From Branchiostoma lanceolatum (Eukaryota > Chordata > Leptocardii > Amphioxiformes > Branchiostomatidae), in contig NC_089730.1 in the NCBI RefSeq assembly GCF_035083965.1, positions 21,034,027-21,098,026 of the forward strand: a stretch of DNA of 64,000 nt, written 5' to 3'. The notes below the pieces were generated by a model, which did not search any database, was not told where the DNA came from, and worked only from the letters and a program-made list of their open reading frames with translations. Positions within the stretch are counted from its first letter, which is position 1, and each line of letters starts with the position of its first letter. The position numbers and the translations under genes were made by a program. This document shows, piece after piece, positions 2,585-60,700 of this stretch.

Positions 2585-3535
2585 ATCTTGGTACAGCAGT
2601 ACTATTTTCGATTTTCGTATCTCTAGTTATGGACATGCTGTGGCTTCAAATTTGTGTGTGGCAGATAGCTTTTGATGTAAGTAAGAAGTGGTGTAGGTTT
2701 GGGTGCCCTAACTGGAACCGTAGTGGAATTTTGTTTAAAAACATTTCCAAGTGCATAACAAAGTATAGACGTATGTCAATGTCATTAGGTATGCAGGTAT
2801 CTTATACAGAGACTTGCACAACAAAATGCAAATATAAACCTAATTTGCAAAATCAATTATGAAAATCTAGTTTTTATTTTTTTCGGTTCCGATTTGTTTG
2901 GTTTGTTATCTTAAGATAGGTAAAACCGAATGCTAATATACGTTGAGGGTAGATGTTAAAGGTGCACGTCGATATTGGGCTTCCTGGTGGACAACCTTGG
3001 TACGGCAGCGGCATTGACGGTTTCGTATCTCAGATCATGGACATGCTGTGGTCGTTGGTAGTAGTTCTTGATGTGTTAGAAAGGTGGTGTAGGCTTGGGC
3101 CCCCTAGCAGGTTTCTCTGAAACTGCAGGGATATTATCGTTAAATCATCAAAGGAGGATATCATAACAAAGGATTTTAATGATTTTTGGTGTGCAGATAT
3201 CTTACACAGAGTTGTAGCATTATGAACTCTCGAAATTCAAGTCACAGAGTCGGTGTGTCTCCTGGTGGCCGACGGCACTGACGGTTTCGTATCTTTGATC
3301 ATGGACATGATGTGGTCCTGATGGTGGGAGATATAGTTCTTGATGTGTGGGAAAGGTGGTGTAGGTTTGGGCCCCCTACCAGATTTCTCTAAAACTGCAG
3401 GGGCGTTATAGTTAAATCATCTAAGGAGGGTATCATAACAAAGGTAAGAAGGATTTCAATGATATTTGGTATGCAGATGTCTTACACAGAGACGTAGCAT
3501 TATGTACTCGAGAGATCCAAGACACAGAGTCAGTG
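2585..3535 (+). repeat. Three diverged tandem copies of the LRR gene 5' flank
   Basis: Blocks at about 2590-2850, 3000-3240 and 3275-3530 share the same order of motifs: CGTATCTC...ATGGACATG, TTCTTGATGTGT...AGGTGGTGTAGG, GGGCCCCCTA, CATAACAAAGG, and TGCAGAT(G/A)TCTTACACAGAG. The third copy abuts the probable acceptor of the LRR gene. These are duplicated 5' non-coding or promoter-proximal sequences; no ORF is conserved through them. Confidence 0.65.
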
Positions 3536-3581
3536 TGGTTTTACAGAGAAGCTTCTTGTTCTCTTCAGGTGGCAGGACACC

Positions 3582-6218
3582 ATGGGAAGAAAGCTGCGAC
3601 ACCTGCTGATTTTCCTTCTCATCATCCTGAAGGAGCCCAACATACCAGAAGCTGGCTGCAGCTGTGCAACATCATCACGCTGCGCATGCGCCAACCAGGG
3701 CCTCACCAGCATCCCTCAGAACCTCCCAACATCCGCCCGTCAGTTAGATCTGAGGTTTAACCAGATAATCAGTATTCAGCCTGGTGCATTTGTAAATCTA
3801 CTGCGGCTGCAATCGTTGTACCTGGGCTCCAACAAAATAACAATGATTCAGGCAGATGCATTCCAAAATCTATGCCAACTACAGCGGTTATACCTGCCCC
3901 GAAACCAAATTGCAGTGATTCAGCCTGGTTCACTTGCAAATTTACCTGGACTCAAAGAGTTGAACCTGTCTTTCAACCAGATTACAGGCATCCAGCCAGA
4001 AATATTCGCAAATCTACCCAACCTCCAAGCGTTGTGGCTGTCAAACAACCAGATAGCAAATATTCCGGCGAGTACATTTGCAACTCTAAGCCGGCTTGAC
4101 CAGTTGGAACTGTCCAACAACAAGATAATAATGATTCAGCCAAAAACGTTTGAAAATCTACCCCGACTTAAAAAGTTGTGGCTGGAAAAAATCCATTTAA
4201 CAATGATCCAGCCTGGTTTGTTCAAAAATCTAATCCTCCTTGAAATGCTAACGCTGAATGAGAACAACATAAAAAAGATTCAGGCTGGTATCTTTGCAAA
4301 TCTACTCCAGCTACAACATTTGTACCTGTCTAACAACCAAATAACAACGATTCAATCAGGTCTATTTGAAAATCTACCCCAGTTACAAGAGTTGCACCTG
4401 TCCTTCAACCAGATAAGAGTAATTCAGCCGGGTGCATTTTTAAATCTGCCAAAGCTAAAATTTGTGAATCTTCGGTCAAACAAGATGTCTGCCATTCCCC
4501 CTTCAGTTTATGGCTTGTTGGCATCTATTCGTGCCGTAAATTTTGGCAAGAACCCCTGGCAATGTGACTGTAGGATGGCTCCCCTCAGGCTAGACATTGC
4601 TAGGTTCTCCTTCTTTAAACACGATATGATCTGTGCCAAGCCCCCACAATTGAAGGGGCAGAAGCTTGCAGACGTTAATCCTGAAGAAATGATATGTAAA
4701 GAGCAAACCATATCAACACTGCCTGTTGATAATCAAACCCCATTCCCTTCATCTGCAGTGTCAACATCTTCTTTTGACCACACAGAAAGCACAGCTGGCC
4801 CAACCGTACAACCTGCAGTGCCAACATCTTCTTTTGGCCACACAGAAAGCACTGCTGCCCCAACAGAACAACCTGCGGTGCCAACATCTTCTTTTGGCCA
4901 CACAGAAAGCAATACTGGCCCAACAGCACGTTCTGTACGCTTCACAAAGCCCCGTCATGGCCCGTTAGAAAGTGCTAACAATTGCTACAATGGCGTCGTC
5001 TCCTCTCTCTATCCCTGGTACTTTAGACGCAATACTGGCCTAACGGCAGATTATGCAGGCAAAACAAGCCAGACAAAAGCAACACCAATTAATCACATTG
5101 AAATCAGCAGTTCCCCCTTACCTGTTGTCATTGCCTCTGTCTGTGCATCGGTAGCTGGCATTGTCCTGATTGGCAGCATCATTCTCACAATCTGGTACAA
5201 AAGGAGGACCAGGCATTCGCCTTTGGCAGTAAATCCCAATGTTGTTGGTAGCAAGACAAACACAGCAGTTTCTGCAATGACCAGTGGTCATGATCCCCAG
5301 TATGAAGATATTGACAATCTTCATAATCAGGCAGGGCAGAGTCAGTCTCAGGCCAATATTCAATCTCTGACAATTGGAAATCTATCACATAAAGAAGTGC
5401 TAGCTGCCTTAAAGCCAAATCCTATGTATGCAGGTGTAGGAACACCACCAAAAGACCCAACTTCTACAAGTGTTCATGATCAGACAGGGCATGGCCAGTC
5501 TCAGGCCATCACTGAATCAAACAAACACACACCCGCTGTAGCGGCCAGTGGTCACAATTACTGGTATAAAGATGCGAACCAACATAATCATACAGGAATG
5601 GGTCAGTCTCAGGCCGTTACTGCATGCATGGATGCTAGAAATCTATCTTATGGCGCAGGGCTTACAACCTCAAAACAGAATTCTCTGTACAAAGTTGTGG
5701 GTCAGTATCAGGCCATCATCAAACCCAACACAAACGCCACAGCTGCTGTAGTGACCAGTGGTCATGATCAGACAGGACAGGGCCAGTCTCAAACCGTCAC
5801 TAAACCCAACACAAACACCACAGCTACTGTAGTGACCAGTGGTCATGATCAGACAGGGCAGGGTCAGTCTCAAACCGTCACTGAACCCAACACAAACACC
5901 ACAGCTGCTGTAGTGACCAGTGGCCATGATCAGACAGGGCAGGGCCAGTCTCAGGCCATGACTGAATCAAACAAACACACCACAGCTGCTGTAGTGACCA
6001 GTAGTCATGATGGGACGGGCAAGGACCAATCTCAGACCATCACTGAACCCAACACAAACACCACAGCTACTGTAGTGACCAGTGGTCATGATCACCAGTA
6101 TGAAGATATGGACCAACATAATCAAACAAAGCAGGGTCAGTCTCAGGTGACTGTCCCTGGAACCGAAACAAACATCACCGCTGATGTAGTGACCAGTGGT
6201 CGTGATCAGACAGGGTAG
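3582..6218 (+). CDS. LRR single-pass transmembrane receptor with repeat-rich cytoplasmic tail
   Basis: This 878-aa protein lies in one coding exon. An acceptor-like CTTGTTCTCTTCAG at 3557-3570 suggests a 5' UTR intron just before the ATG (ACACCATGGG context). The order is: signal peptide (about 1-25), Cys-rich LRRNT (CSCATSS..CAC), eleven 24-residue LRRs (consensus LxxLxLSxNQIxxIQPGxFxNLPxL, about 50-315), LRRCT beginning NPWQCDC and ending about residue 373, a Thr/Ser mucin-like stalk with three 20-residue repeats (TSSFGHTES), one membrane helix (about 514-537, LPVVIASVCASVAGIVLIG) followed by KRR, and a 340-residue tail. The tail has four to five exact 27-residue units with VVTSGHDQTGQGQSQ plus YEDID and YEDM motifs that could be phosphotyrosine sites. 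Large lancelet families of LRR receptors are known and are often linked to immunity or adhesion. Ligand and function here are unknown. Confidence 0.85.
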   Translation: MGRKLRHLLIFLLIILKEPNIPEAGCSCATSSRCACANQGLTSIPQNLPTSARQLDLRFNQIISIQPGAFVNLLRLQSLYLGSNKITMIQADAFQNLCQLQRLYLPRNQIAVIQPGSLANLPGLKELNLSFNQITGIQPEIFANLPNLQALWLSNNQIANIPASTFATLSRLDQLELSNNKIIMIQPKTFENLPRLKKLWLEKIHLTMIQPGLFKNLILLEMLTLNENNIKKIQAGIFANLLQLQHLYLSNNQITTIQSGLFENLPQLQELHLSFNQIRVIQPGAFLNLPKLKFVNLRSNKMSAIPPSVYGLLASIRAVNFGKNPWQCDCRMAPLRLDIARFSFFKHDMICAKPPQLKGQKLADVNPEEMICKEQTISTLPVDNQTPFPSSAVSTSSFDHTESTAGPTVQPAVPTSSFGHTESTAAPTEQPAVPTSSFGHTESNTGPTARSVRFTKPRHGPLESANNCYNGVVSSLYPWYFRRNTGLTADYAGKTSQTKATPINHIEISSSPLPVVIASVCASVAGIVLIGSIILTIWYKRRTRHSPLAVNPNVVGSKTNTAVSAMTSGHDPQYEDIDNLHNQAGQSQSQANIQSLTIGNLSHKEVLAALKPNPMYAGVGTPPKDPTSTSVHDQTGHGQSQAITESNKHTPAVAASGHNYWYKDANQHNHTGMGQSQAVTACMDARNLSYGAGLTTSKQNSLYKVVGQYQAIIKPNTNATAAVVTSGHDQTGQGQSQTVTKPNTNTTATVVTSGHDQTGQGQSQTVTEPNTNTTAAVVTSGHDQTGQGQSQAMTESNKHTTAAVVTSSHDGTGKDQSQTITEPNTNTTATVVTSGHDHQYEDMDQHNQTKQGQSQVTVPGTETNITADVVTSGRDQTG
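5716..6215 (+). repeat. 81-bp coding minisatellite in the LRR receptor tail
   Basis: The block GTAGTGACCAGTGGTCATGA recurs with GTGACC starting at 5751, 5832, 5913, 5994 and 6075, an exact 81-bp (27-codon) period, and again near 6188. The reading frame stays open throughout, so copy-number changes would lengthen or shorten the cytoplasmic tail without frameshift. Confidence 0.85.
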
Positions 6219-25544: not shown

Positions 25545-28500
25545 TTATGAGAGTTGAAGATTCAGAAAATAGTGCAACCAGAAGACGACGCAAAACACCA
25601 GGAACAGGCCCGGGATCAGCACCCTTGCCGCGCGGTCAAGCTTCCTGGACAGTCGCGGTGGGCGTGGGGAGGGGTTCTGGGCGGGAGGCGGCGCGCCTGT
25701 CCCCGAGGAAGGCAGGTGGAACCGCACGGTCCGGGGCCGTGACTGAGGCAGGTAGTCCAGCAGGTAGGCGGGGCGGCAGAAGCGGGCCCGCGGGATGAGG
25801 ACTTTGGGCTGGAGAAGTTCCTTCTTCCACGATTCCTGGAGAAACAGGAAAGACTTATTCAGGCCCACAAAACACTGCTTCATCAGGCGTCATTTCCGTC
25901 AAATCCTGATAAACCTTTATAACGTGTGTAATTTGTTTGCATGTGACTTAATTTCAAAATTTTAACTGGCAACTTTTATGTTTAACCAACCACTATGGCG
26001 GTCAGTACTGACGTCACGGTCACGTGGTTGCAAAACACCCTATTGATAGAAATGCTGTATTCTCAAGTGACATAGATCACGTAAAGAAATCCGCGAAATC
26101 CTGACAAACTTTTTTAATGGGTATTACGTGTTTGCACGTAAATTCAAATATTCAAATTAGCTGGCGACTTTCGGGTTTATCCATCAACTATGGAACACAG
26201 TAGGTAGTGACGTCATAGGGAACATCACTGACGTCATGATCACGTGAGTGCAAACCAACCTTTGCCAGTGCCCGGTAGTGGATATAGGAGGCCACAGCTG
26301 TCTCCAGTAGCCCGAGGAACACCGCCGCCAGGCAGCCGGCCATCCACACGTCAATGGCGCGGGCGTACGAGATCTGACACAATGTGCAAATGAACGATAA
26401 GAAAAGAAATAAACTTATGGAATAGATGATATATTGCAATATTTAACTCGCGTATATTGTGCAATGTGCAGTATGTCTAATGCCAGGGTCACATTTCTAA
26501 ACCGGGGCCCGGCCGGGCTGTTTGCGGGAACCAAAAATAAAAATGTGAATCAAGTAATAATCATGTTCATGACAACTCATTTTTTACGTTTTGTGTGTTT
26601 TGTTATCTTTATATCCTACTTTTCGTTCCGGCAAACTGCCCGGCTGATCCCCGGTTTGGAAATGTGACCCACGTATACATAACACACGTCCACTTGGAAA
26701 CGAATACTAAGTAGTTATCATAATCCTCATTTTTAGTAAGTCCAATTTTGTGTTATCGTTGAAGGGATTCATCAGTCACGGGTGATTACCAGTTACTAGA
26801 ATATTCTTCAATCAGTGACTTGAAAAGGTAACAAAACACGTATACCTCCTTGATCACGGAATGACCTAGTCTTATTTTGTGTTAGAAATTAAAGTTCAAC
26901 CTATTTCACATGAAATTCAATGCTTAGAAATAGAAGACAAATCTTACAAACTCCATGGGCTGCTTCAGGTCCGCTCCCATCACTAAGGTGAGCAGGGCGG
27001 ACACGCCTAGCGACACGCGACCAATCAGAGCCGGCGTCTGGAACCCCATCCAGGGCGCCATCCAGGACAGCACAACCACCATGAGCGTCGGAACGAACGT
27101 CCGGAACGCGTAGAACCAGATTCGTCTGGATAGGCTCAGTCTGATCGTTAGGGTTGTGAACGTGTTGATCGCTGGAGAAACAAAAAAATTGTTTACTTTT
27201 TTTGTTTTTTTGTTTGTTTATTAAGTATGACAGACACCACCATGAGCGTAGGGACGAACGTCCTGAATAGCCTGTACCAGGCCCCGTGGATGGCTGTGAA
27301 AATAGTAGAAATTGGCCAAATAGAGTGAATAGTGTGCTAAGGGAGTCGGCTACGGAGAGAGGGTCCATTCATCCATCACGGAGCCTGCAAGTGAAACCCT
27401 GGCAAATATTTTCTCTATAGCCGACGTAGTTAGTCTGGTAGAGACTACGTCCTGAACGCGTAGAAACAGATTCTTCGAACAGACTCAGTTTGATCGTTAG
27501 GGTTGTGTACGTGTTGATCGCTAAAACAACAAAAGCAATTGTTATTTTGTTTGTTTGTTTTCCTTTGTTTATTCAGTGTAACAGACCTGATGAAGGTCCC
27601 GAACACGTGGAACCAGATCCGTCTGGAAACACATTTATCGAGAAGAGTAGGGGTGACCCGGTATTCTGGCTAAACACACGAGCCGTAGCGAAGCCGCATT
27701 GCACTACAACAGCTAACGAAAAAGCGTCATGTAGATTATTTTATTGTTAGTCATGGATTAGATTAGTTCTTTATATTCGTCAATTAATTAGCAATAGTTC
27801 AAGTCTCATGTGCGTAAGTTGCCATACACTGTACCAGTTACAATTGTCGCGCAATAAAGTCCTTCTAGTAATTGTATGTGTTTAGTTCTCAGCTCAGTCT
27901 GAGGTTCAACCGCTATACCTTTACTTTTGGTACTAAAATGTAAACTTTAAACCGCACGTACTTGGGCCTGGGTCCCCGCAGATGTCTACGTCATACGCGC
28001 AGCTGCCCACGTGTTCTGCGCAGTCTCCGCACGCGGAGCAGTTCAGCAGGCGGGACAGCATGCAGTGCTCCACGTCATAGGTGCATGTCTCGCGGAAATA
28101 AGGGCACACCACATCTGGGAACAACAAGAAACATGTACTTCGTTGATGAAGGTTAGACATCCTGGTAATAAGATATGCCAAAAATAGATACTCAAGCAGT
28201 TGGATTAAAGTTTGAAACAGTCAGATGTTTCAGACAGCATCCGCTATCTTTCGTCGGAAAGTCACCACGCTTTTCTGTCTCACTAGCCTGGGAACCATAC
28301 CATCGGGGGCTCCCCGGTTTTCTACGGCACTGGGAGTGATGCCCGCCCGCCCAGACAGCTTAGCCCGCACGGGGGTGGGTTTACTGCCTTTGATTAAATT
28401 AGCTCGCCCCCGGAACTCTCTATGGCAGCTAAAGTAGACAAGCTGCGGAATTCCATATGGCAGCTAAGTACTACTACTAGACAGACTGGGCCCGGAAAAA

Positions 28501-30161
28501 CACTCCTAAGCCGACCCCTACAGACCGGGACCAGGCTACCGTCTCACCGGAATCGTTTGTGAAGAAGCTGCTGTAGGTGGACTCCAGCGCGGCGCCGACC
28601 AGCTGGAACTGCGACACGACGTTCCCGGCGTCGGACCGGATCGGGGGTCGTCTGCTCTGCGCGGAGGGGAGCAGGGTGAACCGGACGCCGTTGTCTGGGG
28701 TGGGAGGTACAAAAAAAAAAATGAAAAATTACGAGTTTGTAGAGGACATGCTTTCTTAGCGCACGTGCTCGGTGCAAGACCAAGAGAACACTTATGGGAG
28801 ATGTCGGACGACTCGGACCTCGGGTCATGGTCAACTCGGACCATCGCCCAAGCCCAATACCGGACACAGCAATCTAGGCACAAAGACACACACACGATAA
28901 TAATTTCCAAACGAACATAATTGAACTTTAAACGCCGGCGGTACGGGGATCCATAAACCTCAAGTTTGTAATGGTCCGAGTCGTCCTGATCCCCTTCTGG
29001 GCACTGAACTTAGTTTGGGTTACTGGATAGCATCTCTACTCAAGTCAGAAACAAAGTCAATCATGATTGAGACAAGCTTGACTCAGTAAGAGTGAGTGCT
29101 TACTGGGGCCCACTAGCAGAAACAAAATTGATGCGCGCGCGGATGTCATCCATATAATCAAATCAACATGGCATAATAAGTATAAAACTGAATAAAGAAA
29201 GATTACAACAAAAATACAAACAGACAACAATAACTTACATGCGTGCAGTTTTACTGGGCACTCCTGGTCGTCGAACGGATACGCGTGGAGGTCTACGTTA
29301 CATTTCACCTTCAGAACCTTTCTGGAATGGTGAACATGAAACAAGCTGTGAACATTCGCAAACCTTACAACTACTCCTGGGTCGAGTTGTGGATCCTAAT
29401 AAATGTTAAACTTTCTTCCAACACTAAGGTATTCACGGAATCAAATTTTCGACGGCCACTGTCGCCTTCTTCAGGATCAATAATGACCAATCACTTCCGA
29501 ACGTAAACTCGCGACAGGCGAAAATTTGCTCCGTGAATACCTTAGTGTTGGAAGAACGTTTAGCATAGCGTTATGTTTCTACCAACACAGATGAGCTTCC
29601 ATGATAAGATGATCCTAATTATGAACAAAAAATGGCTGGTATGACGTCACATGTTTTGATGTGACGTCACGTGTTGTAGTATGACGTCACGTGTTGTAGC
29701 GTGACGTCACGTGTTGTACAGCAAACATTAAAGAATCGCGTGAAGACAATTATGCCAGTTGAAGACGTTTGCACAAATCAATTTATCTCGATTGAACCTG
29801 TCCACAAGATCTGCTTGACGTCATATACCTAAACGTCTGCACAATGAGGATCCTTAAGGATCCTTAAGCTGTGACGTCACCTATTACGTCACCTGACACA
29901 CAAAGCCGTGACGACAAATACTACGCCAACTGATACACTAAGACTCTTGAGCTATGACGTCACCTATGACGTCACCTATGACGTCACCTATGACGTCACC
30001 TATGACGTCACCTGACGCACTGACGTCCTGTACTCACGTCATCTGATAGACGATGAAGCCCGAGTTGTGGAGCCACATCTTCAGGGACAGGTTGACCTCT
30101 TCCACGACTCCGGAGCTTCCCACCCTGGGCTTGGTGATACTCCCCACTCCCCGGACCTGGG

Positions 30162-30193
<32 letters not shown>

Positions 30194-32809
30194 TTGCAGG
30201 TTAGGAGCGATTGGGATCTAGACTACAATATGACGGGTGCATGTGCTTACACAGACAGACGCGCACACACACATTTCATGTGCTTACACCGTATTAACAC
30301 TCTACGGAAGCTAAGGGTAGTCAAGTCCATTAGTCCAGAAGGAGAAACCCGAAAAAACCGTCTCGTAGCTCACCCTGTACACACTTAGTCCAGTATCACA
30401 GCCTGATGTCTCTCGATCATTTTAGGTATCATGTTCTTTGGTTCCGTTGGCTCTGGGCTCTGTAAGAAAATTCATGCAAATTATGCAAATATAGTACTGG
30501 ACTAATTGTGTGCAGGGTGGGATAAGTTTCTCATTTTCTTGGCCTCTTGCGGGAATCTCCTCCTAGACTATAAGTGTAGAGAAACAGAACTATAAGCCCG
30601 ACCTTATTTCCGAACATGAGGGCGGGGGACCAGAGAAGGGAGGGCGGCAGCGGCATCCAGCCTTTCGACACGACCCCAGCCAGACGTTCGTCTATCCACG
30701 CGATGTTGTACTCAACAGTCATGGACAGGTTCTGGAAACACAGGTATCCGCATGTTTGGTTCTCCTTTACGATTATTTTTTCTCGAAGCAGATGTTAGGA
30801 TGTAATTTATTTTCGGTGAGGTACGGCTGTATTTTGCAGCGTTGAGTACTTTTTTCTATAAGATAATCAGGAGTCCTAAAAAGTGAATTACCAGATAAGA
30901 AGATGCTGCTCAATTTGCTGGAGTTAAATGTTCCCCGAACAGACGTGAAACACCAAGAATGAGCCGGATCCTTAGATCTGCTTTGAGATAAACTATTCGC
31001 TAGGAAGTTCAATATATATGTTTTTAGAAGTTTAAACTTGTTTGAAATGTGTGTTGGTGGGTGTGACTATTAGCTGAGAAATTTAGTATGCAAAAATTAA
31101 CCATTTCTGTTAGAAGTCGAATATTCCGTACCGCGTTCTTCTCCGAAAGCCAATCAACGCGCTTGACGTAAACAGTCGACTGGACGTCTATCCATTTACC
31201 TTGGATGGAAGAATGGAGGAAGAAAGCATGAATGCATGAATATCAATTGATGCATGCATAGAAAAATGGGAATGCAAATTTACTGGTATGATTCGCTCAG
31301 GTTTAACCAGCCAGTATGGCGACTGTGGCGTCACGTGTTGTGGTGTGACGTCACTTGTTGTGGTGTGTGGTCACTTGTGGTGTGACGTCACGTGTTGTAG
31401 CGTCACGTGTTGCAGTGTGACGTCACGTGTTGTAGCGTCACGTGTGACGTCACGTGTTGTAGTGCGACGTCACGCGTGGTAGTGTGACGGCACGCGTTAT
31501 GTCGTGACGTCATGTGTAGATATTTACCGTCAGTCCTGGGGCTCTCGTTCTTGTCGTACCCAGGGGGCAGCGCGTCTCCGCTTTTCAGCGCCGCGAACTC
31601 CGCCCAGCCCACCACTCTGTTGGTCATGCGCACAAGTCAACGTGTGAATAGCAAGGATACTATAAACAGTATCTGTGGCTATCTGTTACATAATGAAAGC
31701 AGTGACGATGATGATGATGTTACATAATTCAACTGCATTGAATAATCAAAATCAATATTTTGGTACACTGAAATTAGGAGGTGTCTTAGTGTGCGCCTGC
31801 AGTTTTATCAAAATTACTAGGTGTCACTGTTGTGTTTGATACAAGTAAAAGTAAATGAAAGTCGCCTAGCTGAATGCATACAAAACCCATAGATGATCGT
31901 CCAAAGATAAAACAAGCGTTCGGAGTACTCAAACGTAACCATCCGCGGAACTGCGGACACACACCACTGTCAAACAAAAATGAACCAACAAAAAAACTGA
32001 CTACAAAACCTCCTTTTACACTTTTAAGTATGAAGGTTCACAAAATTGATTAAAGTTAATGTAATGTGATACAACATACGGCTCCATGACTTCGATCAGG
32101 CCCAGTGCGTAGGGCCGAGCCACCGTCTCCGGGGGGGTCGGGGTTGTGGTGGTGGGAGGGGGTGTTGTCGTCGGCGGGGGGGTCGTTGTCGGAGGGGTGT
32201 AGCAGAACGACGATTCTTGTATCATCCCTTGAATAAATGTAGATAAAAGTTACAGGGTTGATTCTTCCAGACAACTGATTTTTTTGTTATCCATAGCAAC
32301 ATATCTTATTACAAGCATTCATTAGAAGAGAACGTTTTCGCATGTGGCTACCAGTTGTATGGATTAAAAACGTATGATTAAGCTCTACGTGAAAGGACCC
32401 CCCCCCCCCCCCCCCCCTTAAGAAGCCGCCAGAGGCAAGAGAACATCTTTCTATCAGGCAACGTCACTCTGGAACACCCTCTCCACTGACACTCGCGCCG
32501 CCACCACGACTGCCTCCTTCAAAATGAAACTGTGGGACTGTTTAGGCGACCCATAAATGAAAAATAATAGATAGATACAAGAAGTTCAGTTTTAAATGTC
32601 TTACATGTGCATTCGCAGATGAAGGGGTACTCGGAGGGACAGCTGATGTCGGCGTGTCCATCGCCCTTCTTAATCCGAACGCACGGCCCGGAGTCGTTCG
32701 GCTCGCCGCAGCACCAGGCTTCGTACGGGTCCGAGCCGTTGTTGCAGTGTCTGTAGAAGCCTGCATCCTGGAACACAAACGTTGGGCATTGTTACCCGTG
32801 CATGTGCGC

Positions 32810-32852
<43 letters not shown>

Positions 32853-33697
32853 GTGGTGGGTTCTTTAACGCAGCACCAGGATTCGTACGGTTCCGTACCG
32901 TTGTTACAGTGTCGGTAAAACCCTGCATCCTGGAACACAAACAGTGGGCATTGGCACATGTCAGTGTGTGTGTCGTGGTGGGTTCTTTAACGCAGCACCA
33001 GGCTTTGTACGGTTCCGTACCGTTGTTGCAGTGTCTGTAAAAGCCTGCATCCTGGAACACAAACAGCGGGCATTGTTTCCCGTGCATGTGTGTGTGTCGT
33101 GGTGGGTTCTTTAACGCAGTACCAGGCTTCGTACGGTTCCGTACCGTTGTTACAGTGTCGGTACACGCCTGCATCCTGGAACACAAACGTTGGGAATGCA
33201 TTGGTACATGTCAGTGTGTGTGTCGTGGTGGGTTCTTTAACGCAGCACCAGGCTTTGTACGGTTCCGTACCGTTGTTACAGTGTCTGTAAAAGCCTGCAT
33301 CCTGGAACACAAACGTCGGGCATTGGTACATGTCAGTGTGTGTGTCGTGGTGGGTTCTTTAACGCAACACCAGGATCTGTACGGGTCCGAGACGTTGTTA
33401 CAGTGTCGGTACATGCCTGCATCCTGGAACACAAACAGCGGGCATTGGTACATGTCAGTGTGTGTGTCGTGGTGGGTTCTTTAACGCAGTACCACGATCT
33501 GTACGGTTCCGTACCGTTGTTACAGTGTCTGTAAAAGCCTGCATCCTGGAACACAAACAGCGGGCATTGTTTACCGTGCATGTGTGTGTGTGTGTGTGTG
33601 CGTGCGTCTGTGTGTGTGTGACTGTGTTTGTGTGTGGGTGCGTGGGTGACTGTTTGTGTGCGTGCGTGTGTGCGTGCGTGCGTGCGTGTGTGCGTGC

Positions 33698-33730
<33 letters not shown>

Positions 33731-36658
33731 AGTGTGTGTGTGTATATATGTGTGAATGAGTGTGCATGCGCGTTTCTGAGCGTGACTGTACGTGGGCGTG
33801 ACTGTATATGTGTGTGTGTGTGTGTATGTTAGCCGAGAATGCCTAGACCAAAACCTCTGCTTGGAGAATTAGGTTTTACTTACTTCGTCCTTTTTGATGC
33901 CAATCCAAGTGTCCGAATCGAAATCGAACCGTGCAAAATCCATGAGCAGATCGTGCTCGGCTTGGTCGTCCGGCATGGCGAGATGCCCGCCCTTGGTCAG
34001 ACAATGCAGCTCCGCCTGCTCGTGAGACTTCGGGTCGTGTACAAGCAGATACAGGGATGATCCGTGTGGTTCCCAGCCGTCACTCAGTAGACACGGTTGG
34101 TCCACTGTGTGGAAATGAGAATTGGACATGCGGTCAGTAACGGTCAGTAACGGCCAGTTACGGTCAGTAACGGTCAGTAACGGCCAGTAACGGTCAGTAA
34201 CGGTCAGTAACGGCCAGTAACGGTCAGCACAGCAAATAAACATGTTACAGACACGTCCGCTCCGCTTGTTCGTGAGACTTCAGTTCATCTACAAGCAGAT
34301 ACAGGGAGGATGAGCCGTACGGGGGGGATTGAGTATTCGGTCAGTAAAGGTCAGTAACGGTCAGTAACGGTCAGCGTCGACCGGTATCGACCAGTAACGG
34401 TCAGTAACGGTAAGTAACGGTTAGTAACGGTCAATTCCAGCCGTCACTTGGCATACACGGCTGGTCCACTGGAGGAGGGGGGGTGAACATTCGGTCAGTA
34501 AAGGTCAGTAACGGTCAGTAACGGTCAGTGTCGACCAGTAACGGTCAGTAACGGTAAGTAAAGGTCAGTAACGGTCAGTAACGGTCAGTATCGACCAGTA
34601 ACGGTCAGTAACGGTCAGTAACGGTCAGTATCGACCAGTAACGGTCAGTAATGGTCAGTAACGGTCAGTTACAGCCGTCACTTGGCACACACGGCTAGTC
34701 CTCTGTGGAGAAAGGGGCGATTGTACATGCAGTCAGTAATTGTCAGTAACGGTCATCACAGTCAATAAACATGGTACAGGCACGTCAGCTCCGCCTGTTC
34801 GTGAGACTTCGGTTCATCTACAAGCAGATACAGGGAGGATGAGCCGTACGAGTCCCAGCCGTCACTCAGTACACACGGCTGGTCCACTGGAGGCGGGGGG
34901 GGGGGGGGAACATTCGGTCAGGAACGGCCAGTAACGGTCAATAAAGGTTAGTAACGGTCAGCACAGCAAAAACACACTGATGCAGTTCCGCTTGTTCGTG
35001 AGACTTCGGGTCGGGTACAAGCAGATACAGGGAAGCCGTACGAGTCACAGCCGTCACTTAGTACACACGGCCTGTCCACTGTGGAGGAAGGGGGGTTGGA
35101 CATGCGGTCAGTAACGGTCAGTAACGGCCAGTAACGGTCAGTACCGGTCAGCTCTAGCACAGCAAAAACACACTGATACAGTTCCGCTTGTTCGTGGGAC
35201 TTCGGTTCTCTTACAAGCAGATACAGGGAAGCCGTACGAGTCACAGCCGTCACTCAGTACACACGGCCTGTCCACTGTGGAGGAAGAGGGGTTGGACATG
35301 CGGTCAGTAACGGTCAGTAACGGTCAGTTACGGTCAGTAACGGTCAGTACCGGTCAGCTCTAGCACAGCAAAAACACACTGATACAGTTCCGCTTCTTCG
35401 TGAGACTTCGGTTCTTCTACAAGCAGATACAGGGAGGATGTGCCGTGTGGTTCCCAGCCGTCACTCTGTACACACGGCCTGTCCACTGTGTGGAAATGAG
35501 AATTGGACATGCGGTCAGTAACGGTGAGTAACGGTGAGTAACGGTCAGCACAGCAAATAAACACGTTACAGACACGTCCGCTCCGCCTGTTTGTGAGACT
35601 TCAGTTCATCTACAAGCAGATACAGGGAGGACGAGCCGTACGGGGGGATTGAACATTCGGTCAGTAAAGGTCAGTAACGGTCAGTAACGGCCAGTAAAGG
35701 TCAGTAACGGTCAGTAACGATCAGTGACGGTCAGTAACGGTCAGTAACGGCCAGTAACGGTCAGTGACGGACAGTAACGGTCAGTGACGGTCAGTAACGG
35801 CCAGTAACGGTCAGTAACGGTCAGTAACCGTCAGTAACGATCAGTAACGGCCAGCACAGCAAATATACGCGTAACAGGCAGGTCATGGCTATTCTAGTAA
35901 TAAAGATAATTCATATTAGTAAAACCGTAAGTTCTGCTGCAGTACCATAGAAAGCTGATAGGTTATTGCAGTCGACCTTTTTTTTAAATTGTCTGTCTGA
36001 TGATGTGTAACAGAGAATAATGGAGGGTAAACGAGTATGAAATAGGAACTTGTCGTTGTCGTCGTCGACACCTGCCCACATACCAAATATCTTAAAGGAA
36101 ACCCAAGCAATATTAGGGCCCGAAAATCGGATTTTGAAAGTCAATTTATTCAGTCATTTCTATACATGATTAGTTCAAACAACATTATCAGTTATATAGC
36201 AACGTCCATTATGCAAAAATATGACGTAGTTGTGATGTGAGAACTCACTGAAAATCGTGGCCGGAGTTTTTGTAGGCTCGTGAAACTAAGGGGATCATCG
36301 TACAGCACGATTTTGCGCGGTTTTAAAATGCTCAGTATAAAGTTATTACGCAAATGTGCTAAACAATGTTAGTAGATGTCACTACCATAAAGATTTTAGC
36401 ATTTTTTTATTTCAATTTTTTTTTTGCCCTGATATTGCTTTGGTTTCCTTTAAGGATGCATTCGCAACTTTTCGAGTTATGCTCACACAAACACACAGAC
36501 GACGCAAACACAACCCTTTTTGGTGACGGTAATGAATCTGAGATATGTTAGCAACACTTACTGCCCATAGTCTCGGTCACGGTCTCAGTCACGTTTTGAC
36601 CAGCTGTCCCGCACAGAAGGAAGCAAAGCAGCGCGTGTAGAGCCAACACAGGCAGCAT
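25545..36658 (-). CDS. C-type lectin domain fused to Cys-loop ligand-gated ion channel, 14 exons
   Basis: Exons, high to low: 36658-36562, 34104-33884, 32767-32605, 32227-32080, 31616-31528, 31187-31132, 30731-30603, 30156-30038, 29321-29239, 28694-28548, 28114-27962, 27171-26948, 26373-26260, 25835-25545. All have GT-AG borders and all phases agree; the joined frame is 2,034 nt (677 aa). Order: signal peptide (MLPVLALHALLCFLLCGTAG), C-type lectin domain about 35-160 with EPN at 128-130 and closing FICEC, Thr/Pro linker about 163-200, Cys-loop receptor ligand domain (W.E..L, YDK.., VEYNIAWIDERL, SLLWSP), the signature Cys-loop C348-x13-C362 with YPFDDQEC, an 8-Cys exon (about 418-469), M1 (about 486-508), M2 (RVSLGVSALLTL), M3 (exon 13), a short loop and M4 (LDRAARVLIPG...). 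M2 lacks the -1' Glu of cation channels and M1 reads VVVLSWM, so it is nearer the anion (Gly/GABA) branch. Ligand unknown. Confidence 0.85.
26486..26670. mobile_element. MITE with TIR GGGTCACATTTC(T)AAACCGGGG
   Basis: GGGTCACATTTCTAAACCGG(GG) and (CC)CCGGTTTGGAAATGTGACCC are near-perfect inverted ends 185 bp apart. In intron 12 of the lectin-channel gene; non-coding. Confidence 0.75.
27275..27460 (-). mobile_element. Dispersed non-autonomous element (partner of 11680-11950)
   Basis: Reverse-complement similarity to 11680-11950 over AAATAGTAGAAATTGGCCAA, AAGGGAGTCGGCTACGGAGA, CTATAGCCGA and TAGTCTGGTAGAGAC. In the intron between the Cys-rich exon and the M1-M2 exon. Flanking bits (27085-27170 and 27236-27290; 27445-27520) repeat words of exon 12 such as ACCACCATGAGCGT(A/C)GG and GAACGTCC. 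Confidence 0.55.
27765..27870 (+). mobile_element. Retroelement 3'-end-like dispersed repeat
   Basis: TAAGTTGCCATACACTGTAC...TACAATTGTCGCGCAATAAAG(T) closely resembles 39205-39297 (TGTTGCCATACTTTGTACCT...CAATAGTCGCGCAATAAAG(T)). Shared AATAAA-bearing 3' ends suggest a retroposed family. No ORF survives. Confidence 0.5.
28135..28265. repeat. Interspersed repeat 'AGACATCC..GAAACAGTCAG'
   Basis: GATGAAGGTTAGACATCC...TACTCAAGCAG(T/C)TGGAT...GAAACAGTCAG...TTTCAGACAGCATCCGC recurs at 36945-37065 and inverted at 56100-56190. Moderately conserved; the class is unknown. Confidence 0.6.
29403..29568. mobile_element. Short TIR element
   Basis: AATGTTAAACTTTCTTCCAA(CACTAAGGTATTCACGGA) at the left is the inverted partner of TCCGTGAATACCTTAGTGTT(GGAAGAACGTTTAGCAT) at the right. 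Inner sequence is non-coding. In intron 8 of the lectin-channel gene. Confidence 0.75.
29640..30012. repeat. TGACGTCA-bearing minisatellites (two arrays) in lectin-channel intron 8
   Basis: At 29640-29718 four units of about 20 bp (TGACGTCACGTGTTGTAG); at 29933-30012 five exact 13-bp units (TATGACGTCACC), with related TGACGTCACC and TTACGTCACC at 29873-29897. Each unit contains a full palindromic CRE-like site TGACGTCA. Confidence 0.85.
30165..30195 (+). repeat. (GGAT)n microsatellite
   Basis: GATGGATGGACGGATGGATGGATGGATGG adjoining the exon 8 acceptor of the lectin-channel gene. Confidence 0.85.
31310..31520. repeat. TGACGTCACGTGTTGTAG minisatellite in lectin-channel intron 5
   Basis: About ten irregular 15-22-bp units of GTGACGTCACGTGTTGTAG or degenerate forms immediately downstream (minus strand) of exon 5. 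Most contain TGACGTCA and several ACGTGT E-box-like steps. Same unit as in intron 8. Confidence 0.85.
32398..32418. repeat. Poly-C run
   Basis: Nineteen or so consecutive C residues directly before a LINE 3' end; the length may be unreliable in assembly. Confidence 0.7.
32419..32570 (+). mobile_element. LINE reverse-transcriptase 3' end fragment
   Basis: Plus-strand translation gives FYQATSLWNTLSTDTRA...ASFKMKLWDCLGDP then stop. This is the characteristic C-terminal 'WN.LP...SFK..L' end of non-LTR retrotransposon ORF2. It is 5'-truncated and inserted antisense in intron 3 of the lectin-channel gene. Confidence 0.65.
32818..33560 (-). repeat. Six extra copies of lectin exon-3 acceptor boundary
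   Basis: Upstream (minus strand) of real exon 3, the block of acceptor TTTGTGTTCCAG plus the first 60 or so coding bases (GATGCAGGCTTTTACAGACA... encoding DAGFYRHCNNG(T)EPY(K)AWCCV) recurs six times. Acceptors lie near 32930, 33050, 33175, 33300, 33425 and 33545, about 122-127 bp apart. Each copy then diverges from the true exon into KEPTTTHTLT and CA-rich sequence, so it lacks the EPN and closing cysteines. The copies are flanked by (TG)n at 32815-32851. Confidence 0.9.
33570..33830 (+). repeat. (TG)n/(CGTG)n microsatellite
   Basis: Long TGTGTG, GCGTGCGTG and CGCGCG alternating purine-pyrimidine tract, Z-DNA-prone, between lectin exon 2 and the exon-3 copies. Open frames within it are artefacts. 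Confidence 0.9.
34105..35860 (-). repeat. Intron-1 array: GGTCAGTAAC decamers interleaved with copies of lectin exon-2 acceptor
   Basis: About a hundred 10-bp units (plus strand GGTCAGTAAC, minus strand GTTACTGACC), with variants GGCCAGTAAC and GGTCAGTAAA, alternate with about eight partial copies of the exon-2 start (minus strand TGGACCAGCCGTGT...GAGTGACGGCTG...CTGTATCTGCTTGTA). Copies lie near 34255-34320, 34435-34472, 34668-34705, 34765-34890, 34975-35090, 35165-35285, 35385-35490 and 35570-35650. Most keep the CCACAG or CTCCAG acceptor. The genuine exon begins at 34104. Confidence 0.9.
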
Positions 36659-57701: not shown

Positions 57702-60700
57702 CTAGCTGCTGTCATGTAGAGAAGACCTGGCCATTTCTAGGTTCATCAATGATTCAGCAATGCTAGGGTGTGCTGAGTCCTCACCAAAGACACTCCTGTA
57801 CATCTGCAGTGCCTGTTCGTGGTAGCCGATTGCTTTTCTGGCGTCATCCAGCTGCCTCCAAGCCGTCCCCAGGCTGTTTAGTGACATGGCAATGTAACGA
57901 TGTGCTTTATCCTGACCGTAGATACTCCTGAACATCTGCAGAGCCTCTTCAAGATAGCCAGTTGCTTTTCTGGGATCGCCAGCAACACACCAGGTTGCTC
58001 CAATATTTCTCAGCAAGATGGCGATCCTAGGATGTTCTTTATTCTGACCACATAAGATTTTCATCATCTGTAGTGCCTCTTCGTAGAAACTGATGGCTTT
58101 CCTGTGATCCCCCAAACATTGGTAGACACGCCCCATGCTGTTAAGTGAGGGGACAAGGTCATGATGTGCCGTATCTTGACCATAGATACTCCTCCTCATC
58201 TTTAGTGCCTGCTCAGAGTAGCTTATAGCTTTGCTGTAATTTCCCTGGCTACAACAGACAGTCCCAAGGTTGTGAAGTGACCTGGCAATATGAGGAGTTT
58301 CAGCAGTCTGACCGTAGATACTTCTGCGCATTGCTAGTGACTGTTCATGGTAGCTGACAGATGTTGCATAGTTACCCAGGTTTTCATAGGCCATCCCTAG
58401 GTTGTTCAGTGAGATGGCGATGTCGGGATGTGCAGTATTGTCACCATAGATTCTCTTTCTCATCTGCAGTGCCTGCTCCAGGTATTTGGTTGCTTTCCTG
58501 TGATCACTAAGTTCCTCCCAGGTTCTCCCTAGAATGTTGAGTGCCCTGGCAGTGTCAGCATGGTCAACAGTTTGACCATGCACACTCCTGTACATCTCCA
58601 GTGCCTCTTCGTGGTATCCAATTGCTTTTCTGTGATCACCAAGGCTGGTAAAGGCCAGACCCAGGTTGTTGAGTGTTTTTGCAGTTTCCTGATGTGCAGT
58701 TCCCTCACCATGGATACTTCTGTACATCTCTAGCACCTGCTCAAGGTATGCAGTTGCTTTTCTGTAGTCAGCCAGGTCACCCCAGGCCACCCCCAAGCTG
58801 GTAAGTGAGCTTGCTATGTTAGGATGAGCTTCAGTCTGACCATAGATACTTCGTTGCATCTCCAGTGCCTGTTCATAGTAACTGATAGCTTCACTGTAAT
58901 CACCCAGATGGTGGCAAGCTAACCCGAGGTTTAAATGTAACTGAGCAATTTCCTCAGTTTCTGTACCTTCCAGTTTCTTAAGGGCCTTATCAAAGTAGCT
59001 GATAGCCAGGCTGTACTTGCACAGCTGGAAGTACATCTTTCCTTGTACATTAGGAGAACTATCATAGAAATTAGAGACTGAATGTAAAGTTAGACCCTTT
59101 CCAGACAACTTAGATAAAGAATCTTTGAGAGGAACTGACGAATAAAAGTATCTGAAAAGTTGTTTTTCATTTGGTAGATGGAAAACTGCCATCAAGGCAG
59201 TTGTTTGCTCCTCATCATTGATTTGTGAGGATGATTCCTTTCCATGCAGCACTGCTTCCATTGAGACCAAGGCTGACAAGTTTTCCTTCTGTCCACCATT
59301 TGCAATGTAGGTTCTGAGCCTGAGTTCTGCTGAGATGCTGGTAAGCACTGTCAGGTGGTGTGCATTGTTGGGACTGATCACTTGTAGGTTTTCTATTTCT
59401 TCTATTGTCTCCAAAACTGTGGTAGGTACAATGCCTGAAGACAGTGCCAAGCAGTCCACTGCTACTGCTGGGAAGCGATAGAGGTCTTTCTTCACATCAA
59501 TCAGCCTTGCTGCATGTTTTTCTTTGTACCTTTTAATGTTTTCCCCCTGTGTCTCCTGTGCCAGTTGTTGAGCCATTTTTCCTCCATCAGCTTGCAGTAT
59601 CTCTGCTGTAAAGTCCATGTATGTGTCAATCAAAGCCTGGTCCCCTGCTATCAGGCATGGGTTTCTCAAGATAGTGGCAAGGTGATATCCCTTCTTCAGG
59701 TATAATGTGGCATCATTTTGCAATATTGAAGCCATGTTGCTCGGGGTGTGGATGAGTTCACTTGGTGGTTTGTTCTCTGTTCCCTGCCTGCCCAGTGGAG
59801 TCTTGCTTGCCTTTGGCATGGATCCATCAAATGCAAACCCACGAGGTGTAACAGAGTCAAAGTACCAGCTGTCAAGTGGATTCTCAGAGTAGAAATCATT
59901 GAGAGATTTTATTCCCAGTGCTGGGAGAATGGTTTCTCCCAGGTTGACCACCTTGAGGTGTAGATAGTGGGTGAGGTTACGGAAATACTCGAGACATTCT
60001 TCACTTTCTTCTTCTACCAAGATGGCGAACTCCAGGTCTGAGTAAGGAGTTACCAGTCCTGTGGCCTGTGAGCCCAAACCTATCAGGGCATACTTACAGG
60101 GAGGGGGACCCATTAACCCAATACACTCTTCTACAAGCAGGCTGATGAACTCCTTCCTTTGTTGTGCTATGTTCTCAAACAACTGCCTGACAGCCTGAGC
60201 TCGTTTTGCCTCTATCTCTTTGACACGTGGGTCGTCCTCATCATGTACATAGGGATCCAGCTGCTGGTCAATGGTTTCCATCTCCAGCTTGATCTGGTCC
60301 CGCATCTCCTTCAGCTGTTTCTTGTGTTTTTCTGTGTTTTCAAGGCTGACATTATGACAGATATCTAGGGTACATTTCAGAAATGACTTTTCTACTTCTA
60401 TGATAGCTGTCACTATGTTACCATTAAGGACTTCATCCTTTGACCTGGCTATCGCTGCATTGTAGAGTGCTGCTGCTTTGACAAAGTCTTCCCCTTCTCC
60501 TGTCTGCTGACCTCGCTTGCTGTAGACATCCCCCAACTTGCACAGGGGCTCCACCTCTCTCTGGTACTGCTGGGCTGTGGGATCTGGGAAAGAAATAACT
60601 TGATGTTGGGCATTTCTCTTACTAGTTTGTACTTGAAAGGCAACCAAAATATTGTCAGAACCTTGTATCTCAAAGTAGATATTTTGTACAATATAATGTT

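Follow-up and report, generated by a model that had tools for sequence, protein, structure and literature searches.

Does the lancelet Branchiostoma lanceolatum possess a gene that joins a C-type lectin domain (CTLD) with a pentameric ligand-gated ion channel in a single polypeptide? To our knowledge, the pentameric ligand-gated channels of animals are as a rule described as having a fixed plan of extracellular and membrane parts. The locus in question lies on the minus strand of a window of 64,000 nucleotides (the whole stretch of DNA analysed here), and all coordinates refer to this window. A sequence-only reading had connected 14 minus-strand exons into a signal peptide, a CTLD, a linker and a channel. 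This arrangement was re-derived here as one open frame with three Pfam domains. The gene model (36658-25545) comprises 14 exons, and all of its 13 introns are of the GT-AG type:

Exon 1: 36562..36658, minus strand; start codon, signal-peptide-like segment and N-x-T stub; ends in phase 1
Exon 2: 33884..34104, minus strand; first half of the CTLD, residues 33-106; phase 1 to 0
Exon 3: 32605..32767, minus strand; second half of the CTLD with EPN at 128-130; phase 0 to 1
Exon 4: 32080..32227, minus strand; linker rich in Thr and Pro; phase 1 to 2; its donor is the weakest in the model
Exon 5: 31528..31616, minus strand; beginning of the ligand-binding domain with the GYD region; phase 2 to 1; its acceptor is the weakest in the model
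Exon 6: 31132..31199, minus strand; 68 nt; ligand-binding domain
Exon 7: 30603..30731, minus strand; region of loop D and loop A (WIDERL, WSPALMFGN)
Exon 8: 30038..30156, minus strand; region of loop E
Exon 9: 29239..29321, minus strand; 83 nt; Cys-loop C352-x13-C366
Exon 10: 28548..28694, minus strand; loop B to beta-9; phase 1 to 1
Exon 11: 27962..28114, minus strand; 51-residue module with 8 Cys inside loop C; phase 1 to 1
Exon 12: 26948..27171, minus strand; beta-10, M1 and M2
Exon 13: 26260..26373, minus strand; M3
Exon 14: 25545..25835, minus strand; M3-M4 intracellular loop, M4 and stop

The joined coding sequence has 2046 nt and encodes 681 amino acids, its sole stop codon being the terminal one. 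In the spliced protein the signal peptide is followed by the CTLD, a Thr/Pro linker, the Cys-loop ligand-binding domain and M1-M4, and the Pfam families Lectin_C, Neur_chan_LBD and Neur_chan_memb occur in this order, all three above their curated cut-offs. For 12 of the 14 exons the model frame exceeds both other frames in third-position GC; exon 2 deviates from this and exon 9 shows a tie with one of the other frames. The signal peptide and the four transmembrane helices were recognised by hydropathy alone, with segments at 1-23 (signal-like) and at 489-516, 518-541, 547-580 and 650-681 (M1-M4-like) besides an extra marginal one at 202-220 (1.31), and residues 475-675 were aligned to GlyR alpha-2. 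Exons of 68 and 83 nt and an intron in loop C are known from vertebrate GlyR/GABA-A genes. All splice sites were scored with a generic matrix and ranked within the respective strand of the window.

Neur_chan_LBD (PF02931) reaches 64.7 bits over residues 228-374 of the whole protein (cut-off 26) and Neur_chan_memb (PF02932) 44.4 bits over residues 497-590 (cut-off 28.1). The channel family TIGR00860 of NCBIfam matches with 129.3 bits (E 1.7e-37), below its cut-off of 280.2. The best 60 of 305 PDB matches are all GlyR, GABA-A or GluCl chains with GlyR alpha-2 at the top (6.5e-29), and the C-x13-C loop reported in the sequence-only reading was found again as C352-x13-C366, aligned with that of GlyR alpha-2. 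By its domain, its Cys-loop and its four helices the predicted product is a member of the Cys-loop pentameric ligand-gated channel family. With GlyR and GABA-A it has in common the C-x13-C ligand-binding domain, the M1-M4 layout, the Arg at 0' and the Leu at 9'; it differs from their subunits by an added N-terminal CTLD on a Thr/Pro stalk and by an added Cys-rich insert of 51 residues in loop C.

Further differences concern the agonist site and the pore. Compared with GlyR alpha-2, Arg of loop D is replaced by Asn, a Phe of loop A by Met and ESF of loop B by HAY, whereas the Phe just past loop C is kept. The M1-M2 loop is two residues longer than in GlyR alpha-2, and Pro-Ala at -2'/-1' before M2 is exchanged for Ile-Gly (PAR to IGR). 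The anion-selective branch is typically marked by Pro-Ala-Arg at -2' to 0' before M2. In the lancelet protein this motif reads Ile-Gly-Arg, with no Glu at -1'. Overall similarity would still place the putative subunit in the anion branch, but with these altered pore residues its anion selectivity is a presumption. The loop letters and the pore numbering are our own assignment save where passages of PMC4006026 give them. According to these passages the loop-D Arg is important for how sensitively GABA-A and glycine receptors respond to agonists; amine-gated anion channels (HisCl1, ACC1, MOD-1, LGC-55) have polar residues in its place, and GABA-A beta isoforms, which contribute the principal face only, are without it (PMC4006026). 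At the position aligned with the Arg of GABA, glycine and glutamate receptors the lancelet protein has Asn. Since GABA-A beta is also devoid of this Arg, its absence alone does not point to an amine. A homomeric receptor of the canonical GABA, glycine or glutamate type nevertheless appears unlikely; it is a better guess that the ligand is an amine or another compound, or that the subunit provides one face of a heteromer.

For channel function the more surprising part is the module in loop C, which the earlier reading had missed and which adjoins the agonist site more closely than the lectin does. Residues 422-472, 8 of them Cys, are encoded by exon 11 (28114-27962) and lie between 'QFQLVGAALESTYSSFFTNDS' and 'INTFTTLTIRLSLSRR'. 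In the alignments with GABA-A alpha-5 (left) and GlyR alpha-2 (right) the gap falls in loop C, between the strands that we take to be beta-9 and beta-10. Loop C is the flap over the agonist site. If exon 11 is removed, the PF02931 score of the ligand-binding region rises from 68.0 to 73.4 bits and the end of the match moves from profile position 149 to 215 of 216. Removal of exon 6, 7, 8, 9 or 10 left 44.7, 41.7, 52.9, 34.7 and 65.7 bits, respectively, so among the six single-exon removals (exons 6-11) that of exon 11 is alone in raising the score. This control is strong for exons 6-9; exon 10 is a weak control (-2.3 bits), as the presence of exon 11 already ends the match at 149, before most of exon 10. 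The splice sites of exon 11 are strong (acceptor in the top 1.0%, donor in the top 3.7%), and the exon is very probably translated in at least one isoform. No Pfam match was listed for it at a maximal E of 10, a search in which HMMER filters drop most weak matches. A known family in the PDB was rejected as well, the two matches obtained (E 0.53 and 3.7) being chance-like. Single-sequence fold prediction gave a mean pLDDT of 45.5 and a pTM of 0.26, values too low to be informative. An internal duplication is unconvincing, its 6 of 16 identical residues having been reached by 141 of 5000 shuffles.

The lectin domain is matched by Lectin_C (PF00059) with 43.7 bits in the whole protein (residues 57-158, profile positions 2-106 of 107) and with 48.1 bits in the lectin part. 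Counted on the sequence, C67, C135, C149 and C157 are presumably the core cysteines of the CTLD. The predicted domain is a complete CTLD and belongs to this fold. EPN is located at residues 128-130 of the spliced protein, where the earlier reading had placed it, and is in register with that of the best PDB match, collectin-11 (4.4e-12). The loop after EPN is three residues shorter than in collectin-11: GEPN-NAYDEEDC reads GEPN-DSGPC here (EDC to GPC), and GWNDVAC reads GHADISC (WND to HAD). Calcium-dependent sugar-binding C-type lectins typically show EPN (or QPD) together with a Glu before Cys and WND. In the lancelet domain EPN is present, ED-C is GP-C and WND is HAD. In the mannose-binding-protein numbering, as we assume it to apply, three of five calcium ligands of site 2 (the sugar-coordinating site) are kept, and N130 of EPN falls within an N-D-S sequon. 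For both reasons sugar binding of the canonical kind is open to doubt; it would be at least as likely that the domain binds a protein or uses a non-canonical site. Of the 29 residues 170-198, which lie between the CTLD and the channel, 24 are Thr or Pro. Such a stretch may well form an extended stalk, which suits tethering better than the transmission of force or shape, and its composition argues against tight mechanical coupling of the CTLD to the channel. Given the fusion, the lectin would probably act as a tether rather than as a gate.

How were the two extra modules acquired? Exons 2 and 3 together, encoding the CTLD, represent a cassette of 1-1 phase and exon 11 likewise is a 1-1 exon. 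A bias to this phase is described for shuffled exons of lancelets in one study, which gives 40% for shuffled exons, 51% for shuffled domain exons and about 28% for non-shuffled ones (PMC4284660). Two shuffled insertions fit the phase pattern. This is modest evidence, since exon 10 is also 1-1 and so are about 28% of non-shuffled lancelet exons. The outer phases of both cassettes predict in-frame isoforms that are devoid of either module, with exon 1 joined to exon 4 or exon 10 to exon 12.

The introns around the lectin exons contain repeat arrays. Upstream of exon 2, which starts at 34104, six partial copies of its acceptor and 5' part are found at 34468-35485 (minus strand; unit of about 196 nt). 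Five of them out-score the real acceptor and the sixth ties with it; none comprises the complete exon. Upstream of exon 3 there are six copies of its acceptor and 5' part at 32842-33569 (minus strand; unit of about 122 nt, 5.9 copies). They read VKEPTTTH after WCC/WYC instead of GEPNDSG and possibly stem from another version of the exon. Five of these six have a GTACGG donor (6.6), which yields a possible 31-nt mini-exon in phase with exon 4; its use could give a broken CTLD. As alternative exons the copies of both kinds were rejected because none holds the rest of its exon. We read them as minisatellite-like arrays, which point to a recent turnover of repeats in the lectin region and leave the gene model unchanged; they could lower the yield of correct lectin transcripts. 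In intron 11 (27235-27630, minus strand) degenerate fragments of exon 12 occur (INTYTTLTIKLSL, RRICFYAFRT, VSRRIWFHVFGTFIRSVTL and WYRLFRTFVPTLMVV), apparently old partial duplications. Introns 8 and 5 (29639-30013 and 31324-31517) contain short tandem repeats whose units, of 12, 15, 20 and 35 nt among others, include TGACGTCA, which we take to be CRE-like. A second copy of channel or lectin elsewhere in the window was not detected by tblastn at E <1, three matches lying at 2.9-6.5.

The remaining content of the window was sampled by 10 chosen open frames of 227 with at least 70 codons. An open frame of 906 codons on the plus strand (3498-6215) contains numerous leucine-rich repeats (PF13855, 262.6 bits) as well as an LRRCT cap that narrowly exceeds the cut-off (21.3 bits). 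Another one of 998 codons on the minus strand (57705-60698) combines tetratricopeptide repeats with a nucleotidyltransferase region of the DUF294 type (PF03445, 26.0 bits, cut-off 21). Gene fragments resemble an N-terminal methyltransferase (PF05891; 41127-41864, minus strand), a fatty-acid elongase (PF01151; 15001-15366, plus strand) and, below the cut-off, an FtsJ methyltransferase (PF01728; 49549-49947, plus strand). Neither Rfam at gathering thresholds nor a tRNA search found a match in the window.

Whether lectin and channel form one gene is a matter of junctions 3/4 and 4/5 only. The sequence-only reading had argued from the phase agreement at 13 introns against two abutting genes. This argument is weak, since junctions inside the lectin or inside the channel must agree whether fused or not, and a single phase would match by chance in about one of three cases; even so, the fusion is the model to be preferred. 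Of all splice pairs that of junction 4/5 is the weakest, its donor ranking within the best 22.2% of GT and its acceptor within the best 27.3% of AG on this strand of the window. Such weakness would suit two transcription units or mainly two isoform classes, namely a lectin that is secreted and ends in a mucin-like tail, and a separate channel that either has a missed start exon of its own or skips exons 2-3. Nevertheless, among the seven in-frame combinations that the searched range yielded, the 4/5 pair has the highest score, all six others having been rejected for lower scores. Skipping of exons 2-3 would keep the frame, their outer phases being 1 and 1, and since the end of exon 1 and the start of exon 4 share phase 1, a direct 1-4 splice could give a lectin-free channel, but this would still require the fusion gene. 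A candidate first exon at 31942 would join exon 5 in phase and is a possible alternative start; its GTAATT donor, however, is weak and its best 10-residue hydropathy is 1.67 versus 2.54 for exon 1. In line with the earlier statement that no new signal peptide precedes the channel, the eight best start candidates listed for the stretch from exon 2 to exon 5 are all less hydrophobic than exon 1, the best one reaching 1.89. The signal peptide of exon 1 is supporting, not decisive, since 5 of 418 minus-strand ATG frames (exon 1 included) and 1 of 478 plus-strand frames in the window are as hydrophobic and have a strong donor. Against two units speaks also that neither AATAAA nor ATTAAA was found in introns 2-5, which is weak evidence because the first AATAAA past the gene's own stop is 882 nt away. 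We consider two units or two main isoform classes unlikely and hold, with good confidence, a putative single fused gene to be the best model.

Other explanations have to be weighed as well. In a decaying or unexpressed gene, or in a haplotype or assembly oddity, ancestral channel exons would stand beside degraded lectin exons. The repeat-driven partial copies of the 5' ends of exons 2 and 3 (six each), the exon 12 fragments in intron 11 and the change of some conserved channel residues are in line with such decay, but 681 codons without frameshift or stop, the highest third-position GC in the model frame of 12 of 14 exons and core domains above the Pfam cut-offs make it decidedly improbable. 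Still less probable is a glycan-gated channel, in which a sugar bound by the CTLD opens or closes the pore, which the earlier reading had thought possible. The CTLD is indeed complete and has EPN, and N-terminal accessory domains can modulate pentameric channels; in the available part of the report on DeCLIC its NTD appears to speed gating (PMC12664993). However, GPC for EDC and HAD for WND in comparison with collectin-11, the incomplete set of site-2 calcium ligands, the position of the EPN Asn in a sequon and the flexible Thr/Pro linker leave glycan gating unsupported. A glycan-anchored channel is possible and so is anchoring to a protein. Finally, the crown of CTLDs might capture a surface (matrix, cell or microbe) and the Cys-rich lid replace closure of the small-transmitter pocket, so that the channel would report contact with a macromolecule. 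Such sensing would replace or accompany that of a transmitter; we regard it as rather improbable.

The explanation that we prefer, with moderate confidence, is one gene for a putative Cys-loop subunit of the anion (glycine/GABA) branch which obtained a CTLD and a loop C insert by exon shuffling. Its basis is the anatomy of the DNA, with an intact frame and two extra modules that are both of 1-1 phase. The CTLD would have been inserted directly behind the signal peptide, and the Cys-rich module, likewise by exon shuffling, into loop C. Five subunits would assemble to a channel that is crowned by CTLDs on flexible, probably O-glycosylated stalks. These CTLDs would tether or cluster the receptor via a partner (a protein, or a glycan bound by a non-canonical site) and not gate it, whereas the module in loop C may reshape or cap the agonist pocket. 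The pocket itself would have a polar loop-D residue as in amine-gated anion channels and not the Arg of GABA, glycine and glutamate receptors. Two shuffled extracellular modules, one of them in loop C, would amount to a natural experiment that tells what share of the agonist site is replaceable, and a CTLD-bearing channel would bear on the question whether a receptor can carry its own tether in place of relying on scaffold proteins that are separate from it. Should both cassettes be subject to skipping in part of the transcripts, one gene would give rise to channels with and without each module.

Among known systems a fusion of CTLD and Cys-loop channel was not found in the open-access literature searched, a search that left subscription papers and supplementary tables outside; a database entry may exist. 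Exact short peptide patterns of the 681-aa protein had no match in viral contigs, a collection without animals that is uninformative on lancelets. Equally uninformative in this respect are prokaryotic genome contigs, where nine pattern matches to the 423-aa channel part included no relative by tblastn. In the polycystin-1 family a CTLD is part of the ectodomain of a large channel-related membrane protein, but polycystins are not known as pentameric Cys-loop channels. The NCBIfam family TIGR00864 weakly matches the lancelet CTLD (17.4 bits, residues 45-159, far below the cut-off of 1861.4), and this match covers the lectin only. A survey of pro-loop receptors, as far as its accessible text goes, discarded sequence outside two signature domains and states that links to other domains had so far been demonstrated at the genome level alone (PMC4795631); because of this discarding it would not have shown the layout of a fusion.

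Of the systems considered, DeCLIC and the GABA-A epsilon subunit of rodents come closest to this layout. DeCLIC also has an extra module N-terminal to the ligand-binding domain, a flexible accessory that modulates the channel (PMC12664993). It is, however, bacterial, the two lobes of its NTD are described as homologous to prokaryotic regulatory and calcium-binding regions and not to a CTLD, and the accessible text of that report does not mention an insert in loop C as it occurs in the lancelet gene (PMC12664993). The rodent epsilon subunit, likewise a Cys-loop subunit of an animal, has a long additional stretch (483 aa) that is encoded by the second exon (PMC1975676). In the part of the report at hand this insertion is described without a domain (PMC1975676), whereas the lancelet gene combines a recognisable CTLD with a second insert in loop C.
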